A stretch of 64,000 bases of DNA, taken from the NCBI GenBank assembly GCA_029555965.1, contig JAKQHY010000206.1, positions 1-64,000 on the forward strand, written 5' to 3'. The notes beneath the pieces were generated by a model that was not told where the DNA came from, did not search any database, and saw only the letters and a list, made by a program, of their open reading frames with translations. The position numbers were made by a program, and so were the translations under genes. This document shows, in pieces, positions 1,722-10,445 of the stretch; position 1 is the stretch's first letter, and every line of letters begins with the position of its first letter. The stretch is from Chloroflexota bacterium (GTDB taxonomy: Bacteria > Chloroflexota > Anaerolineae > B4-G1 > SLSP01).

Positions 1722-2771
1722 TCAAAGCAGTCGTTCTAAATTCGCAAAGGGCACAAACGCCCGCTCTTTCCCCACATCAACATACACACCGGGCATCCGT
1801 GCGCCATTCTCCAACGGCACTGCCCCGGTCGGCATCTCAGCAATGATGCCGGAGGCGCTTGCATAAGGGCCACGCAGAACCCGCACGCGGTTCCCCACGG
1901 CCGGCGGCGATTCAGGGTCTACCGGGTTGCCGGCCTGCGTGGGCATGGGCGTCACAATATAGGGGCGTTTGAACGAGCTGCCGGCCTGCCACTGGCCGCT
2001 CACCGCAGCTTCGCGCCCATCAATCGAACGCAACAAATCAAAAATAGCCTGACACATAGGCATATCCCCAATACCCTCGGTGGCGATAACCGGAAACGTG
2101 ACGGTTTCTAACCGTTTCATCAAAGATGGCGGAATGCTGCCCACAATAATACCCCGCACTTGCATCTCAATCGCGTGCTCCAGCGTCTCCTCATCAATCT
2201 TCGAGCCGCCCACCAGAATTGCGCCCTGGGCGGAAGCATCAATATGTTTGGGGCGCATAGGATTTTTAGGCGCGCGCACCACCGCCCGCATCACCCCAAA
2301 CGCCTCACGCCCATTGCCCCAGGCTGCCTGGATGTGCGCCCCCACCGTCTCAATGACAACCCCTTCACCGGGAAGCACTGTTACCACCGTGCCGGGGACC
2401 AGCGCGTTGAGCCGGATCAACGTTGGCGGCGCTTCCAGCCATAAACGCCCGCGCCCCTTTCCTACAATGACGCCGCTAATGGGAGCGCGCACCGCCCGGG
2501 CGCCCAGGCCGCCCCTTGTCGCCAACACATCGCCTTCGTTGACGTTATCGCCATCTTTCACCCGGACACAGGTTGCCGTCTTTTTGACCGGCACATCCAA
2601 TTCCCGCGCCACATCAATAATGCGAAAATCCGGCGGCTCATTGGCTTGCGCCACAATGTGCGCCGGTTCCACCGGATCGCCAACCCGCGCCAGGACTTCC
2701 CCCTTACGGGGCAGACGCCGCGTCGTGCGAATAATCGTCAAGGGATTCACGATGGTGTAGGATACAAACAT
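1722..2771 (-). CDS. Uncharacterised protein with C-terminal KOW-like segment
   Basis: 349-aa ORF; N-terminal biotinyl/RnfC-like turn motifs (GDNVNEGDVLATRGGLGARAVRAPISGVIVGKG), C-terminal GNRVRVLRGPYASASGIIAEMP. Confidence 0.8.
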   Translation of the reverse strand: MFVSYTIVNPLTIIRTTRRLPRKGEVLARVGDPVEPAHIVAQANEPPDFRIIDVARELDVPVKKTATCVRVKDGDNVNEGDVLATRGGLGARAVRAPISGVIVGKGRGRLWLEAPPTLIRLNALVPGTVVTVLPGEGVVIETVGAHIQAAWGNGREAFGVMRAVVRAPKNPMRPKHIDASAQGAILVGGSKIDEETLEHAIEMQVRGIIVGSIPPSLMKRLETVTFPVIATEGIGDMPMCQAIFDLLRSIDGREAAVSGQWQAGSSFKRPYIVTPMPTQAGNPVDPESPPAVGNRVRVLRGPYASASGIIAEMPTGAVPLENGARMPGVYVDVGKERAFVPFANLERLL

Positions 2772-2772
2772 A

Positions 2773-4524
2773 TTAGCCCCCTACATCCCACAACCAGCGA
2801 TTGAGCAGCCGGTGGCGCTGATCGACATTGTCCGGCAGCACCAGGGGACGCCCGCGCGCATCCACAATCAACCCGACCAGGCCGCCAATCGCCTGGACGG
2901 CGCCGCCGCGCCCCGGCCCCAGCCCCACATCAAAGCGCCGGCTGGGACGGAGTTCCAATGTAGCGCGCTGTCCCGGCAGCAGCGGCCAGATTTCGATTTC
3001 GCCATAATGCGCCTCTACATCCAATTTACCACCATCTTCATACATAATACTCACCTTAAGGATCGTATCGCCATGATGCGCCCGTCCCAACGGAGAAAGC
3101 ACCGTTCCTAGCGAGACCAAAGTGCCGGCTTCTAGCGCGGAAGCCGCCGCCAAGGGTTTGACGCCGGCCACGGCGCCCAGGGCGGGAGTGGCCCGATTGA
3201 CATCCAACAGGACCGTTGAAATGCCAAGCGGCTGCAACCCATCCAGAACCGTCAGTAACGCCTGTCCCGGGCGCGGCATATGAACAATGCCCCCACCGGA
3301 AACCAGGATGGGGTCAAGGCGCGGCATCATGCCCGATACCTGGGTGGCCCGTCCGGTATCCCAGGTGGATTGAGCAACCGCCAGCGCGGAACGTAACATT
3401 TCGCGTACCACGGCCTGCTCCACCCACAATTCCCGCGGCTCCTGAGGAACCGTCCAGGGGCGCAGGGCGCGATTGTGCAGCAGCGTCAGCACCTCTTCTT
3501 CCTCGATGTCCTCCGGGATCCATTTCAGCAAGGGCGCGATCCCATGTTCCTGCACCCACGCCACCGGCCCATAGGCAATCCCCCGGCTATAAACGGTGAC
3601 ATACGGACGGCCATCAAACGTCGCAGCGACAATCGTATTAGCCGCTCCCAGGTCTACCCCCAAAACGCCCCGGTCGGGGTTCCCCTCGCGGCGCCACAGA
3701 AAATCCACTACACGGGAAAAAGCGGTGGCGGTGGGCTGCACCGGCAAGCGCGACCATTGGCTCAGTGTATCCACACCCGGCGCAGCCGTCAGACGTTTTT
3801 CCGCATAGATACGCTCCAATGCGACCTGAGCCGGGCCGAGATGCTCGACGCCAATGGCCGGATGCACGTTATCCACGACTTCGATGCGGGTAATATCCCC
3901 CATCAACTTCGTCACCCGCGCGCGCAACGCCGAATTCCCGGCATATAACACCATCGGGCGCTGTCCTTTTTCCAGCATGTAGGAAGCCAGCGCAATCGCA
4001 TCGGCCAGTTCCAGCACCGGGCGCGTCGCGCCGCCTTCCACGCCGCCCACCAATAAAATCACATCAGGTTCGCTATCGCGGATCACGCGCGCCCACATTT
4101 CTTGGGGGGAACGCATGTTGCCCTCACGGGAGAGGATTGCCTGAATGTTGGTGTACGTCGCCGTCGCCGTGCGGCGCGCACTTTCGAGGCTCATCTCCCG
4201 CACCAGGCCGGCCAGGATCAACCGCAACGGTTCTGGCGCGCTCATGATGACCACGAAAGCATCTACCCCCTGAAGGTTGTGGCGCGGGGTAAGCAAGCGC
4301 CCGTGCAGATAGAGGGGACGGCCGGTGATTTGCTCGATCTCGTTGATCGCATGGACGATACCCACGCTGATATCGCTCCAGGGTGGATTGAGAGTTGTGG
4401 GGGTCTCAGCTTGCGCCACAAACCGGTAATTGCCCTCAACCCTTTCCAGCAGCAGTAGTTTGGTGATGACCGTGCCACAATCGGCAATCAAAATAGATTC
4501 AATAGATGATTCTTCTGGCATCAA
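2773..4524 (-). CDS. Glutamate mutase MutL-family actin-fold ATPase-like protein
   Basis: 583 aa; N-terminal ILIADCGTVITKLLLLE phosphate-loop pattern, LLVGGVEGGATRPVLELADAIA and GVLGVDLGAANTIVAAT, typical of the MutL (glutamate mutase L) family. Confidence 0.8.
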   Translation of the reverse strand: MMPEESSIESILIADCGTVITKLLLLERVEGNYRFVAQAETPTTLNPPWSDISVGIVHAINEIEQITGRPLYLHGRLLTPRHNLQGVDAFVVIMSAPEPLRLILAGLVREMSLESARRTATATYTNIQAILSREGNMRSPQEMWARVIRDSEPDVILLVGGVEGGATRPVLELADAIALASYMLEKGQRPMVLYAGNSALRARVTKLMGDITRIEVVDNVHPAIGVEHLGPAQVALERIYAEKRLTAAPGVDTLSQWSRLPVQPTATAFSRVVDFLWRREGNPDRGVLGVDLGAANTIVAATFDGRPYVTVYSRGIAYGPVAWVQEHGIAPLLKWIPEDIEEEEVLTLLHNRALRPWTVPQEPRELWVEQAVVREMLRSALAVAQSTWDTGRATQVSGMMPRLDPILVSGGGIVHMPRPGQALLTVLDGLQPLGISTVLLDVNRATPALGAVAGVKPLAAASALEAGTLVSLGTVLSPLGRAHHGDTILKVSIMYEDGGKLDVEAHYGEIEIWPLLPGQRATLELRPSRRFDVGLGPGRGGAVQAIGGLVGLIVDARGRPLVLPDNVDQRHRLLNRWLWDVGG

Positions 4525-4531
4525 TACCCCC

Positions 4532-5206
4532 CTAGGCGGGGAAGATCAAGCGGAAAATGCGCCACACCTGAAGTACCAGTGTAGTGAGCGCCGTAGTGAG
4601 CGCGCCGGAGAAAAGCAACGCCAGAGCGCACAAAATGAAGAAATGTCCCAAGCGCTCCGTCCAACGCCACAACAGGCCGAAACGCCCACGCGGATTGCGC
4701 TCGCGCGGAGAAAAAACCAGCAGCGAAGTCCCCACACCAACCATCACCACCAGTCCCTGGAGCACTCCCCAAGGCGGCTTCCCCAGGGACAACGCGGCGC
4801 CGGTCGCCGTCATCTGCGGGATCAGCGTCCCCAGCAACGCGCCGGAGACGGCGACGGCCGCCCCCACCCCCAACAAGAAACCCATTGTGATATTTCCGAG
4901 CAAGCCCAGGTTTCCTTGAACTTTGGGGGATGCAAACCCCTTGAATATGAGCAACACCCCCAACAACAAGGGAATCACATAGATAAAACGCTCGCCTACC
5001 CTGGCGGAAGAATCCAACGCCACCAGGATCCATCCCCAAAGGACTTGCTTCAAAAGAACCCCCAAAAGGTAACCGGTACTGCCGCCAACCAATAGCGCCA
5101 ACGCCCAACGATAGAGGACATTGTCCCCAAACACATAACTAAATAGCATAAGCGTAAGCACGGCGCCGACAATCAGGCCAATCATCTCTAAATCTATCGG
5201 TATCAT
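4532..5206 (-). CDS. Polytopic membrane protein, unknown function
   Basis: 224 aa with several hydrophobic helices; overlapping shorter ORFs are frame artefacts. Confidence 0.8.
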   Translation of the reverse strand: MIPIDLEMIGLIVGAVLTLMLFSYVFGDNVLYRWALALLVGGSTGYLLGVLLKQVLWGWILVALDSSARVGERFIYVIPLLLGVLLIFKGFASPKVQGNLGLLGNITMGFLLGVGAAVAVSGALLGTLIPQMTATGAALSLGKPPWGVLQGLVVMVGVGTSLLVFSPRERNPRGRFGLLWRWTERLGHFFILCALALLFSGALTTALTTLVLQVWRIFRLIFPA

Positions 5207-5209
5207 AAA

Positions 5210-8200
5210 TTACTTGGCTCCCTTTTTCCCGGCTGCCACAGCATAAAGCAATCCGCACAACAACAACCCGGCAGCAACCCAGTGGGTCAGCAGCAGTGCA
5301 TTGAGTACCCGCGTCAGGTCCAATGTCCCCAGTTGCGCAAATTCACCTTGATAGAGCAATTGACGGTACGTCGCCAGATCGGCGAGACCCACCAACCAGC
5401 CGTTCAGGTCTCGAGTCTCAAAGTAAGGCATAATGAAGGCCCCATGGGCCGCATTGGTGCAAACGCCGATGGGCAGCGGACGACGCGCGGCGGCGTTCTG
5501 TTCGATCCAGCCGCGCAGAGGTTCAAGTCGCGCCGCCACCACCAGCATCCGGTCGGCCTCCAATGCCACATCGCGATTCAGAAAATCGGCAATTCCACTG
5601 GCAGCGCCAACCCGGTAAACGGACTCGGTAGAAGATAACGTGTTGGTCATTGCATGGCTGGTTAACAACGCCTGAATTAGCCCCGCGCCTTCAGGCAAAG
5701 TGCTGACCGCGATCACGTTAACCTGGCGCGCTGCCAATTGCTCCAACAAGGTGTCTACAATGGGCTGCATCTCGACAGCCTCCGCCGGGCCATATTCCAA
5801 AGCCAAAATGACCGAGTCTCCCGGCGACAGGGACTCTACATGGGCCTTGAGTTTCCCCAACCCCGGCCGGGCGTCCGGAGGTGGAGTCTGGCCCAAACTT
5901 TCGCCATCCCACCACAGCCCCACCACTGCCGCGACAAGCAACAGCAACGCCATCGCTATACGCAGCAACTGCGCGCCCAAGCCCGGTCGGCCGTGCTGCT
6001 GCGCGATGGGGCGCGCTTTGCCGCGCGGCTGTTCCAACAACTGCTGCCACAACTGCGCCTGCTGCACAATCACCTCCGGCGTCTGCGGCAGGGGAATGGG
6101 TGCAAAATTCTCCGGAATATCCACCGCCAGCAAGGGAGCGATAACGCCGGCCAAACCGGCCAGTGGGCCAGACTCTTCGGCAGGTCCTAGATATTTCTCT
6201 GAGACAACCTCTCCAGCGCTGGTGACGGTGGGACGCAATTGCTGCACCCATTCAGGAATTTCGGCGCGGGCTAACCCGGAGGCAGCGTCTACAGCCGGCG
6301 ATCCCTTGTCCAAAATTCCGGCGATTTCGGGCGGCAGCGCCGGTAAGGGGCCGGTGCCCGATGGTCGCAATTGCTGAAGCCATGTAGGGACATTGGCGCG
6401 CGCCAAATCCTCGCCGGCCGGGATTTCCGGGATATCGGGCGCTTCCTCTGCTTCCGCAGGAATCAATGCGTCCAGCCAACTCGGCGTCTCCTCCGTAGAT
6501 TCCACAGCCGCTTCCGGTTCCCGCGTGACGGGCCGACTCATAGCGCCGTCCAATGCGCCTGGGACAAAAGCCGGCGCGGCGGGTGTGGCGGCGGATTCCT
6601 CTTCTCCTATATTGGCTAACCAATCCGGCAACTCGGCCTCTTCCGACCGGTCTGTCGGGGCGACGCCTTGCAAACGACGCGCGGCAAGTTTCCCAGGCGC
6701 TGCCTGCGGCGTAGCCGGCTCTACCGTCTGAAGCCAATCCGGTATCTCGGCCATCTCTGGCGCTTCGGTGAAAACAGCGGTGGTCGAGGGCGCGCGGCCG
6801 GTCACGTCGGGCGCATCGGCAGGCTCTTGTTCAAAAATATCGGCAGCGGGCGGCGTTGCAGCTCCCCCTTCAGGTTGCTCGCCAGCGGCTAACCAGTCGG
6901 GGAGGTCTTCTTCAGCCTCGGCCTCAGCAACGATGTTCGCCAGCCAATCCGGCAGCGCGGCCTTCTCCGGTATGGAGGTGTTCGGGGGCGTCAGATCCTC
7001 GTCCTCTTCTGTCACAGCGCCAGCCAGCCAATCCGGCAATTCAGCAACGGGTTCAAGCAGTTGGTCCGGAGTCGTCAATTCCGCGACTGTCTCCGCTTCG
7101 GTTTCCTCAACCAATCCCGCGATCCAGTCCGGCAGTTCGACGGCGGGTTCGGTCACCGCGCCAGAGATGGGCGACTCCGCGGATGCCTCCGCTTCGGTTT
7201 CCTCGACCAATCCCGCGATCCAATCTGGCAGTTCGGCGGCGGGTTTGACCGGCTCCGCGAAAGCGTCTGGTTCCGCAACCTCCTCCGGTTCTGTTTCAGG
7301 AACGAGGCCCGCCAACCAATCCGAGGATTCCTCTGAAGCGGTCGGCTCTCTTCGAACCACAGGTGTCCCTGCCGAAGAAGCGCCCGAAGGCGCAGTAGGC
7401 GACGGCCTGGTCGGAGGCGCGTCGGCGTTGATCAGCAACCAGTTCGGGAGGGGCAGCAATCCAGCCGACGCCGGCGGCCCGCCTGGAACTGCGTATTGCA
7501 GCAGCCATGAAGGAATCTCTGCGGATCTGCTCCCCGGCGCAGCCGCATCAGGATCAGCCAGCGCCACCAACCAATCCGGTAAAGGACGGGCTGGCGCTAT
7601 TTCAATGGTATCGTCGCGCACAGCCTCCGGCGCGGCATCTTCTGAGAGTTCGGCAAACGCAAGGGGTGGGGAAATGGGCAGCGCCTCGGCAGTGGATTCT
7701 GCTTCAGAAAAACCCTGCGTCCAATCCAATTCCAAAACCTCTTCCTCTTCCTCTGCCCCTTCCGGCGCCCCCGCGCCCACCAGTCCGACGCGCCAATCAT
7801 CGGGGGCGGGTTCGGTAATCGGTTCCACCGCGTCCATGCTGCGCAACCAATCGGGGCCGCCAAGTTCCTCGTCCACCGGTTCTCCCACGCCCGTGTCGGA
7901 CAGCCAATCGGGCTGCTCGTCTGTTTCTTCCTCGGCGGAGGATCCGGTCAAACCAAAGTCGTCAAGCCAATCGGGCAATGGCGCCGCCTCTGCCGGATCC
8001 GCGAGCGGCAGGGCCGGCGGGGGAGCCGATTGGCGCGCGGCAGGGGATGGTTCGGGCGACATCAGCTCATGCAGCCAGTCGGGCGGGGCAGATTCTTCTG
8101 TAGGCTCCGATTCAGTCGCCACGGTAGGCTCCGGTTCAGTCGCCACCAAGCCCGACAGCCAGTCGGCTTCCTGTCCTGTGGGAGAAGGCGCAGGCGTTTG

Positions 8201-8839
8201 CTCCTCCTGATCGGAGAGCCAGTCGGCTAATACGGATGGGGCGGCGCCGGCGTCAGGTCCGGCAAGGCCCGATAGCCAATCAGGCAAGGCCGGTTCGGAT
8301 GACGGAGAAGCAGGGGGAGTGGGTTGCGCCGGCGAAGGTGATGGAGGGGCCGCTTCTTGCCCCAGACCCGCCAACCAATCGGGCAGTTCCGCCGGGGCAG
8401 GAGGCTCCGCCGAAGTTGCCGCGCCCGCCGGTTCCTCCCCTCCCAACCCGGCCAGCCAATCGGGCAAGACGCCTTCAGCGACAGCCGCTTCAGGTTGCCC
8501 CGATGCGGGAGAAGTGTCGCTTAATTCCAGCAGCCAATCGGGCAGTTCGGTATTCTCAGGGACCGCTTCAATGGAACGTGTTGGCAAAGAGATGCTCTTC
8601 AAACCCGACATGGTGGACTCGGTGCTGCTGGGCGCGGCGGGGCGCGACCGCAATCCAGCGGTAGGCATCAAACGAGCATGGCACTTGTCACAGAAAACGT
8701 TACCCACGGGATTCATGGCGCCGCAATTCGGGCAACGGATTTCCGTGTGCTGCAAAGCAGCGCCACATTCGTTACAAAAACGGCTATTATCTCGATTCAG
8801 CGTACCACATTTTGAACAGCGAATCATACGTAAACTCAC
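5210..8839 (-). CDS. Double zinc-ribbon membrane protein with about 26 LPDWLxxL motif repeats
   Basis: 1209 aa: N-terminal CSKCGTLNRDNSRFCNECG and CPNCGAMNPVGNVFCDKC; acidic/Pro-rich region with repeated LPDWLAGL; C-terminal TM helix (LLRIAMALLLLVAAVVGLWW), extracytoplasmic-type domain and second TM helix. Confidence 0.9.
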   Translation of the reverse strand: MSLRMIRCSKCGTLNRDNSRFCNECGAALQHTEIRCPNCGAMNPVGNVFCDKCHARLMPTAGLRSRPAAPSSTESTMSGLKSISLPTRSIEAVPENTELPDWLLELSDTSPASGQPEAAVAEGVLPDWLAGLGGEEPAGAATSAEPPAPAELPDWLAGLGQEAAPPSPSPAQPTPPASPSSEPALPDWLSGLAGPDAGAAPSVLADWLSDQEEQTPAPSPTGQEADWLSGLVATEPEPTVATESEPTEESAPPDWLHELMSPEPSPAARQSAPPPALPLADPAEAAPLPDWLDDFGLTGSSAEEETDEQPDWLSDTGVGEPVDEELGGPDWLRSMDAVEPITEPAPDDWRVGLVGAGAPEGAEEEEEVLELDWTQGFSEAESTAEALPISPPLAFAELSEDAAPEAVRDDTIEIAPARPLPDWLVALADPDAAAPGSRSAEIPSWLLQYAVPGGPPASAGLLPLPNWLLINADAPPTRPSPTAPSGASSAGTPVVRREPTASEESSDWLAGLVPETEPEEVAEPDAFAEPVKPAAELPDWIAGLVEETEAEASAESPISGAVTEPAVELPDWIAGLVEETEAETVAELTTPDQLLEPVAELPDWLAGAVTEEDEDLTPPNTSIPEKAALPDWLANIVAEAEAEEDLPDWLAAGEQPEGGAATPPAADIFEQEPADAPDVTGRAPSTTAVFTEAPEMAEIPDWLQTVEPATPQAAPGKLAARRLQGVAPTDRSEEAELPDWLANIGEEESAATPAAPAFVPGALDGAMSRPVTREPEAAVESTEETPSWLDALIPAEAEEAPDIPEIPAGEDLARANVPTWLQQLRPSGTGPLPALPPEIAGILDKGSPAVDAASGLARAEIPEWVQQLRPTVTSAGEVVSEKYLGPAEESGPLAGLAGVIAPLLAVDIPENFAPIPLPQTPEVIVQQAQLWQQLLEQPRGKARPIAQQHGRPGLGAQLLRIAMALLLLVAAVVGLWWDGESLGQTPPPDARPGLGKLKAHVESLSPGDSVILALEYGPAEAVEMQPIVDTLLEQLAARQVNVIAVSTLPEGAGLIQALLTSHAMTNTLSSTESVYRVGAASGIADFLNRDVALEADRMLVVAARLEPLRGWIEQNAAARRPLPIGVCTNAAHGAFIMPYFETRDLNGWLVGLADLATYRQLLYQGEFAQLGTLDLTRVLNALLLTHWVAAGLLLCGLLYAVAAGKKGAK
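5980..8560 (-). repeat. Array of LPDWLxxL-encoding motifs (about 26, irregular spacing)
   Basis: On the + strand seen as recurring cagccaatc(c/g)ggcaa/g blocks, e.g. 8453-8466, 8373-8386, 7128-7140, 6938-6950. Confidence 0.85.
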
Positions 8840-9444
8840 TCATCACTGTGCGGCCGGTCGGTTCCCAGGATGACGCGCAGGCCGGTTAGGGTAATGCCCA
8901 GGGCCACACCAATCGCCAGCCCTCGGGTGCCAGACATTGCCAGGGTATTCAATAATTGCAGGATAGTTTGGAGCAGCGGCGGATAAATATAAGGGATCGT
9001 GGCAAATAAAAACAAAATGGTCAAACCCACAAAGAGCAGCGTGCCGACGTTGCGGCGCGTTTGCATAGCACGTATGCCGGCCAACAGTAACGTGAGGCCG
9101 GTCAAGGCCAATAAGGCCGCCTCGCCAGGCACGAGCACGTAATGGAGGAAATATTGCGGCCATTCTCCCCCAGCACCTTGCCAAAGCACCAGACCCAGGC
9201 TGGCGAGAAAGGAGAGGATGATCAGCAGGCTGCCGATCTTATGTTTGCCATCCCGCAAGCGCCCCAGATGAACCCGCAGGAGGTTAATGGAGGCCAGCAG
9301 CAACGCAAACGCGCTGAGCAACACGGCCCAGCGGATTAAGACAAAACGAATGTCGCTCAACGGACGGACGGGAATCAGGGTTCCCAGCAATACCAGGATG
9401 CCTGCCAACATCGCGCTGGCCGTCGGGATTGTGCGTTTGAACAT
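8836..9444 (-). CDS. Polytopic membrane protein, unknown function
   Basis: 202 aa, about 6 hydrophobic segments; stop overlaps the start of the next gene (ATGA). Confidence 0.8.
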   Translation of the reverse strand: MFKRTIPTASAMLAGILVLLGTLIPVRPLSDIRFVLIRWAVLLSAFALLLASINLLRVHLGRLRDGKHKIGSLLIILSFLASLGLVLWQGAGGEWPQYFLHYVLVPGEAALLALTGLTLLLAGIRAMQTRRNVGTLLFVGLTILFLFATIPYIYPPLLQTILQLLNTLAMSGTRGLAIGVALGITLTGLRVILGTDRPHSDE

Positions 9445-9453
9445 ACCTTCAGC

Positions 9454-10200
9454 TCACCTTAACAGCGATAACACCGCAGTAATGAGGATACCGGCAATCA
9501 CCAACCACCGGAGCGTCTCTTGCGCGCTCAAACTGGCCCAAGAGACAGAACGTTCTTTGACAAGGGCGCCGCCGACGAACAATTCTTCACCAATGACCAA
9601 TTGCGTCTGCTCCAACGCCGGATAGAGCGCGCCAATCCCAGGCAAAGAAACGACGCCGCCCATTGAAGCGACGCCCCGCCGCCGGGCGGCCTCGGTCAGC
9701 AAACTCACTTCTTGATTGAAAGCCCCCAGCATCACATTGGCGCCGATCGGCGCGTCAAAAAGCTGCGTCGCGGCCATCGCGGCGTAGGTAGTGGGGGTGG
9801 GCGCGGCGAACTGCACCATAGTCGGGCGAAACAGGTCGCCCGCGCCGACGCGCGTGTAAGCCCGCCGCAGCCAATCGCTGGCGAGCAGATACAGGGTGGG
9901 ATCGCCCGTGGTGATCAGCGGGGGGGTGTCATAGGCCGCGGAAAGTTCTAACAGTGCGCGAACCCCTTCCAGAGCTGCCACCGAGGTCATAGCGTCGGCT
10001 GTCGCCAGGCCGCCATTGCCCAACGCCACGTGGATGGAGACGCCCTGCTCGGCAGCCCGGCCCACTTCTCCGGCAAGCGCCGAAAATACTGGGAAATGTC
10101 GAAAGGTAGGGGTCTTGTCACGGTAACGTATCCCGAAAACCGCCAGGGCAACGGCGCCGCTCAGCACCAACCCCAACGCGATCAAATGAGTACTGTTCAT
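9454..10200 (-). CDS. Membrane-anchored protein, possibly DUF6754-like
   Basis: Start re-assigned to ATG at 10200 (MNSTHLIALGLVLSGAVALAVFGIRYRDKTPTF) with 4-bp ATGA overlap to upstream gene; contains VALGNGGLATADAMTSVAALEGVRALLELSAAYDTPPLITTGDPTLYLLASDWLRRAY. Confidence 0.75.
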   Translation of the reverse strand: MNSTHLIALGLVLSGAVALAVFGIRYRDKTPTFRHFPVFSALAGEVGRAAEQGVSIHVALGNGGLATADAMTSVAALEGVRALLELSAAYDTPPLITTGDPTLYLLASDWLRRAYTRVGAGDLFRPTMVQFAAPTPTTYAAMAATQLFDAPIGANVMLGAFNQEVSLLTEAARRRGVASMGGVVSLPGIGALYPALEQTQLVIGEELFVGGALVKERSVSWASLSAQETLRWLVIAGILITAVLSLLR

Positions 10201-10445
10201 TGCGTGACTCCTTCTGCCAGATGCTGCCGAAATTGTTGCAGTAGCTCCGGCTGTTCCAACATGGTAGCGAGTGGGGCCAACCGTTGCCCCAGGAATGGCG
10301 CCAGCATCCACAAGCCCTGCGCGCCGACGAAACCCCACACTTGCAGCACATCCAGGAGCGGGAGGGCCAGATCAGTCAGCCCGCGCCGTTCGATGGCGGC
10401 AGCCCACTTGACCATATCAGCGGTGGACAAGGATTTTGATTGCAT
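10197..10445 (-). CDS. Small hypothetical protein, first gene of the operon
   Basis: ATG at 10445 preceded by GAGGA; ORF track start (TTG 10469) is upstream. Confidence 0.6.
   Translation of the reverse strand: MQSKSLSTADMVKWAAAIERRGLTDLALPLLDVLQVWGFVGAQGLWMLAPFLGQRLAPLATMLEQPELLQQFRQHLAEGVTQ

Follow-up and report, generated by a model that had tools for sequence, protein, structure and literature searches.

The gene studied here, on the reverse strand of the window (the whole 64,000-nucleotide stretch of a Chloroflexota contig that was analysed), encodes a membrane protein in which selection on the protein sequence maintains a short motif, Ø-P-D/S/T/E-W-L-x-x-Ø, while the spacers between its copies vary freely. 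We consider it somewhat probable that this array protein serves as docking arm to a conserved membrane complex, i.e. as a multivalent docking scaffold, and the recurrence of the motif in a second, TPR-containing protein suggests an undescribed bacterial docking code.

Results

The open reading frame gives 1209 residues from its GTG codon, but the ATG at 8825-8827, which would give 1205 residues, is the likelier start because the homologues begin 'MIRCPKCG'. An earlier note, made from the DNA letters alone, had described two Cys4 ribbons at the N-terminus and a transmembrane helix, soluble domain, transmembrane helix arrangement at the C-terminus, and both descriptions held: the ribbons were matched by the Pfam families Zn_Ribbon_1 (1.2e-12) and DZR (1.1e-9), and hydropathy and the AlphaFold model agreed on the two helices, with the C-terminal domain (CTD) between them modelled at >90 pLDDT (Table 1). 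From the ribbons to the first membrane helix runs a disordered-looking stretch of 863 residues (63-925), with 15% Pro, 17% Ala, 13% Glu, no Cys and a strongly acidic balance (168 D+E vs 28 K+R). Its composition is disorder-like, and the C-terminal part of it, where the array was modelled, had low pLDDT.

Table 1. Features of the array protein and of its gene cluster in the window; residue numbers refer to the array protein
Feature	Position	Strand	Basis
Barrel-sandwich/KOW protein, weak RnfC_N/biotin-lipoyl-like and KOW-like matches	1722..2771	-	Pfam, loci comparison
MutL/GlmL-type ASKHA ATPase	2773..4524	-	Pfam PF13941, 3.7e-63
Membrane protein M4, 6 hydrophobic segments, always adjoins array gene	4532..5206	-	Hydropathy, loci comparison
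Array protein (double zinc ribbon, disordered-looking 26-copy motif array, TM, predicted extracytoplasmic domain, TM)	5210..8839	-	ORF, Pfam
TM2, residues 1181-1203, basic C-tail GKKGAK	5231..5299	-	Hydropathy, AlphaFold model
CTD, predicted extracytoplasmic Rossmann-like alpha/beta domain, residues 992-1162, no family	5354..5866	-	AlphaFold model, Foldseek, PDB search
TM1, residues 954-976, basic on N-terminal side	5912..5980	-	Hydropathy, AlphaFold model
Conserved helix QAQLWQxLLExP directly before TM1, residues 922-936	6032..6076	-	Alignment, AlphaFold model
Conserved segment GPLxGLxGVLPAxxxVDxP, residues 890-908	6116..6172	-	Homologue alignment
Motif array, 26 copies of Ø-P-[DSTE]-W-L-x-x-Ø, acidic, Pro/Ala/Glu-rich, residues 99-868	6236..8545	-	Motif count, alignment
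Two Cys4 zinc ribbons, residues 8-53	8681..8818	-	Pfam PF13240/PF12773
Membrane protein M2, 6 hydrophobic segments, always adjoins array gene	8836..9444	-	Hydropathy, loci comparison
DUF6754 protein: TM, predicted cytoplasmic Rossmann-like domain, TM	9454..10338	-	Pfam PF20539, 3.9e-21

The residues flanking the membrane helices carry a net charge of +2.4 before TM1 and +2.2 after TM2, which would put the zinc ribbons and the array in the cytoplasm and the CTD outside; the domain of the DUF6754 protein is predicted to lie inside. The membrane tethering that the earlier note had proposed is supported. In the AlphaFold models both the CTD and the DUF6754 domain are Rossmann-like, and the two proteins have a like layout of a domain between two membrane helices. 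Homology between the two domains was considered and rejected (hhalign probability 0.9%). Against known structures, Foldseek returned for the CTD only generic Rossmann-like folds with TM-scores of about 0.2 and a PDB sequence search returned nothing, and no specific PDB relative of the DUF6754 domain was found.

The estimate of about 26 motif copies proved exact, as the array region contains exactly 26 Trp residues and all of them belong to the motif family, Ø-P-[D/S/T/E/N]-W-[L/I/V]-x-x-Ø, with some copies degenerate at -2 or -3 (single-copy examples are AELPDWLAGLG and ARAEIPEWVQQLRP). The strict form [LIVMAP]P[DESTN]W[LIV] occurs 18 times in the array, against a mean of 0.12 and a maximum of 3 in 5000 residue shuffles. 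At the DNA level the core CCNGAYTGGYT is found 14 times in the window, always inside the array gene (against 0.52 expected and at most 3 in 100 shuffles), while elsewhere in the genome it stays at control level, with 63 occurrences, the array gene's 14 included, against 61 of the reversed pattern. The copies are irregularly spaced, at 17-53 residues, i.e. one aromatic per about 33 residues, and a Pfam scan placed no named domain over the array, which argues against a folded tandem repeat such as a TPR or solenoid.

That selection acts on a repeated short linear motif, as the earlier note had argued, is borne out by the turnover of synonymous codons and by where conservation ends. Over all repeat pairs, the motif codons at -2, -1 and +1 differ by 389 synonymous vs 342 non-synonymous changes, whereas the flank codons differ by 80 vs 827 and 89 vs 837, about 1:10. 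Every codon for Pro (four), Leu (six) and Asp (two) occurs in the motif, and Tandem Repeats Finder detected in the array DNA of this genome one 24-bp unit present twice and nothing else, so the repeats are not DNA duplicates. In the relative G020, the array contains 10.8 copies of a 69-bp unit, which shows a route by which copy number turns over. A motif logo was built from 567 W-centred segments with dissimilar flanks, taken from 42 distinct homologues; its relative entropy is 1.4 bits at P(-2), 0.9 at -1 and 2.0 at L(+1), and falls to about 0.1 beyond -6/+5. Across these homologues conservation rises above background only from W-4 to W+4, the spacers being at background, and the Trp is almost never replaced by Phe or Tyr. 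In the alignment, the two copies nearest the membrane keep almost the same position throughout. In the model of the array part, short helices were predicted with low confidence at model residues 13-16 and 57-60, and the preference for D or S/T at -1, where these modelled helices start, would fit a helix N-cap.

A match to the full array protein was found in 38 of 40 relatives. In a sample of 301 Chloroflexota genomes the CTD is encoded in 64, DUF6754 in 67 and both in 62, and direct reading found the CTD in two of the five genomes that had scored for DUF6754 only; homologues occur in genomes labelled as Anaerolineae, Thermoflexales, Thermoflexus or unclassified Chloroflexi MAGs. Wherever contigs reach, the genes follow the order DUF6754, M2, array protein, M4, MutL, barrel-sandwich/KOW, save that in families f25, f35, f61 and f64 the barrel-sandwich/KOW gene lies away from the cluster. 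Loss of this gene in some families was entertained and rejected, as the gene is unlinked but present. At the unlinked loci inspected (L126-L129) it sits beside response-regulator-like genes, and three loci have ATP synthase-like genes within about 7 kb.

Homologues carry 0 to 60 motif copies, and 3 to 60 where an array exists. Some lineages (f21, f11, f9 and f29) show this cluster, entire or as far as the contig covers it, with zero copies, and the f21 homologues consist of just 290-310 residues in a TM-domain-TM layout. The presence of the array changes at least 4 times on a concatenated tree, and since lineages with the cluster and no array exist, the array is best seen as an accessory of a core complex. 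The earlier note had held that homologues lacking the motif would count against it; such homologues do exist, but in them the entire array is missing, and the spacers with it.

The motif recurs in other proteins. A second protein, present in 31 of 40 relatives, has a TPR domain, then a long low-complexity tail, with more TPR in its complete copies, and in most of the array-bearing Anaerolineae examined its tail contains 2-14 motif copies. At the loci read (contig C207 of G014, L156, L160 and L224) it has its own PDWL array together with repeated DALAWLESLAAGKEEELRAQAEAEAQARVAEILG modules. The orthologue in the genome under study (L224, G000:C42:9875-10810) is cut by the contig end at 'LESQIEIPDW', which is the start of the first, position-conserved copy. 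TPR orthologue tails in families f25, f35, f61 and f64 are free of the motif, and the one f35 tail read (G149 C1:5377000-5385500) has TPFSLxxLGLxxxE repeats and no PDWL. In genome G278, the membrane array and the TPR tail are both degenerate, with D-x-x-W-L mostly without Pro.

The TPR domain was detected in 23 of 24 array-bearing genomes, G094 being the array-bearing genome in which the protein was not detected, vs 3 of 9 array-less cluster genomes, or 4 of 18 when cluster-less genomes are added (Fisher p 7.5e-7, a value that ignores shared ancestry). The phylogenetically independent pairs number 2-4, all in one direction or neutral, too few for significance. Between the two array proteins of a genome, the motif letters show no co-variation at -1 (rho 0.07), and their correlation at -3 is no greater than that of spacer composition.

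In family f35 the MutL protein also carries the motif, with two copies on a disordered C-terminal tail (six loci, one of them L076:11071-13272). The tails of genus g70 have IPDWLREE plus LPDWLGGM or LPDWLSGL in all five complete MutLs read, and those of genus g91 a related form, MPEWLRQD plus VPSWMLDA. The f35 tails end in basic and aromatic residues, e.g. KRGFFRRK, reminiscent of a membrane-targeting tail.

Discussion

The ribbons and the array may be envisioned as a long, flexible, negatively charged cytoplasmic tether, on which each motif copy would form a helix-capped amphipathic turn, bound weakly in the groove of a partner. Many such copies would give avidity and could gather several partner molecules at the membrane, while copy number would change through duplication and loss of units and selection would hold the motif core. 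The anchor, i.e. the two membrane helices with the outer Rossmann-like domain, would join the array to DUF6754, the two 6-TM proteins, the MutL-type ATPase and the barrel-sandwich/KOW protein.

The earlier note had also proposed such a docking scaffold, with its partner possibly in the same operon. The repeated motif and the membrane tethering stand, but the placing of the partner is not supported in that form: the f35 MutL carries the motif itself and the operon is intact in array-less lineages, which makes an outside reader no less likely than one from the operon. That the reader is an operon protein such as DUF6754 appears unlikely to us. TPR domains commonly bind short peptides, and since this TPR domain also tracks the array, it is the leading candidate, although its being the reader can be put forward only tentatively; it is nearly an even matter whether some other protein reads the motif. 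The zinc ribbon was rejected as reader, since several f25-type proteins with 15-60 copies have no ribbon. More speculatively, one could imagine a phylum-specific docking code in which a dedicated TPR reader recognizes Ø-P-(D/E)-W-L-x-x-Ø, cross-linking TPR-array chains in the cytosol with the membrane array to form a tunable network that sits on a six-protein complex with an actin-fold (ASKHA) ATPase; we regard this fuller picture as rather doubtful.

The presence of the motif in both the MutL tails and the TPR protein favours either one common reader or contacts between the motifs themselves, and argues against MutL as the sole reader. If the contacts were between motifs, the copies would be homotypic stickers in a sticker-and-spacer arrangement, and the membrane protein, the TPR protein and the MutL tails would co-condense without a reader pocket. 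The acidic Pro/Ala/Glu spacers, the irregular spacing with one aromatic per about 33 residues and the sharing of one motif by two or three proteins per genome speak for such an arrangement, but the motif is over-specific for a sticker, as it keeps Pro(-2), Asp/Ser/Thr(-1) and a Trp that hardly ever gives way to another aromatic even though the spacers are Glu-rich, and we find this explanation improbable. Still less probable is that the array acts as a membrane-binding device, its amphipathic turns laying the acidic tether along the inner leaflet. While Trp and Leu do fall on one helical turn, the excess of acidic residues given above, with mostly Asp at -1, would be unfavourable at an anionic leaflet, and the motif occurs also in the TPR protein, in which no TM is evident by eye; we would give this very little credence.

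FtsA reads the tail of FtsZ and PilM reads the tail of PilN, and by analogy the array might recruit the ASKHA ATPase of its own operon, MutL, which is the cytoplasmic ATPase of the cluster. The FtsZ tails in the studied genomes, IEIPAFLRR and LDIPPFLRNR, follow a like pattern, Ø-P-x-aromatic-L, and the array shares with the FtsZ and PilN peptides an Ø-P-x-aromatic-Ø motif that sits in a disordered tail close to an ASKHA ATPase. However, the array differs from these peptides in having up to 60 copies, and it has Trp where FtsZ has Phe followed by Arg, with no interchange between the two; the Phe and subsequent basic residues expected of a mimic of the FtsZ C-terminal peptide are absent from the array motif. 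The two copies on the f35 ATPase itself and the retention of MutL in array-less lineages also weigh against recruitment of MutL, which we judge quite unlikely. FtsZ (PF00091) was not found in the genome under study, which is 84.7% complete, whereas it is present in 20 of the 21 further genomes tested that have the array or the cluster; its absence probably reflects incompleteness of the assembly.

Returning to the docking scaffold, we file the protein as a short-linear-motif scaffold, which is a known kind, inside an undescribed membrane system. CsoS2-type scaffolds likewise consist of a disordered chain with repeated short docking motifs; compared by description, the array protein differs from them in being membrane-anchored, in its motif and in having no carboxysome genes among the six of its cluster. 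To our knowledge, bacterial proteins in which one short docking motif is repeated tens of times have rarely been described. Another likeness is to the polar landmark proteins HubP/FimV, membrane proteins with an outer domain and a long acidic, largely unstructured cytoplasmic part, whose repeats differ in number and length from species to species, and with a connection to client binding by TPR (PMC12918733). The array protein was found to have the same kind of acidic, variable, repeat-bearing cytoplasmic region. It differs in that a Pfam scan found neither a LysM-like nor a C-terminal FimV/TPR domain in it, the TPR being on a separate protein, and in having zinc ribbons, an N-terminal array and hence a reversed order, a fixed operon, and a short, sharply conserved Trp motif instead of long acidic repeats.

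No named family covering the array or the CTD was found, and the Pfam families DUF6754 and MutL name neighbours in the cluster, not the array gene. In the one paper collection searched, we found no literature on DUF6754, LPDWL-type motifs, the gene cluster or the PilM/PilN peptide, and the few papers containing the letters LPDWL concerned unrelated proteins.

The array protein spans many Chloroflexota families, within an invariant cluster and with a motif common to at least one other protein, and this makes a search for the reader feasible. Success would at once give a function to DUF6754, to a new MutL context and to a TPR family, and the natural copy numbers, from 0 to 60, would constitute a ready-made avidity series.
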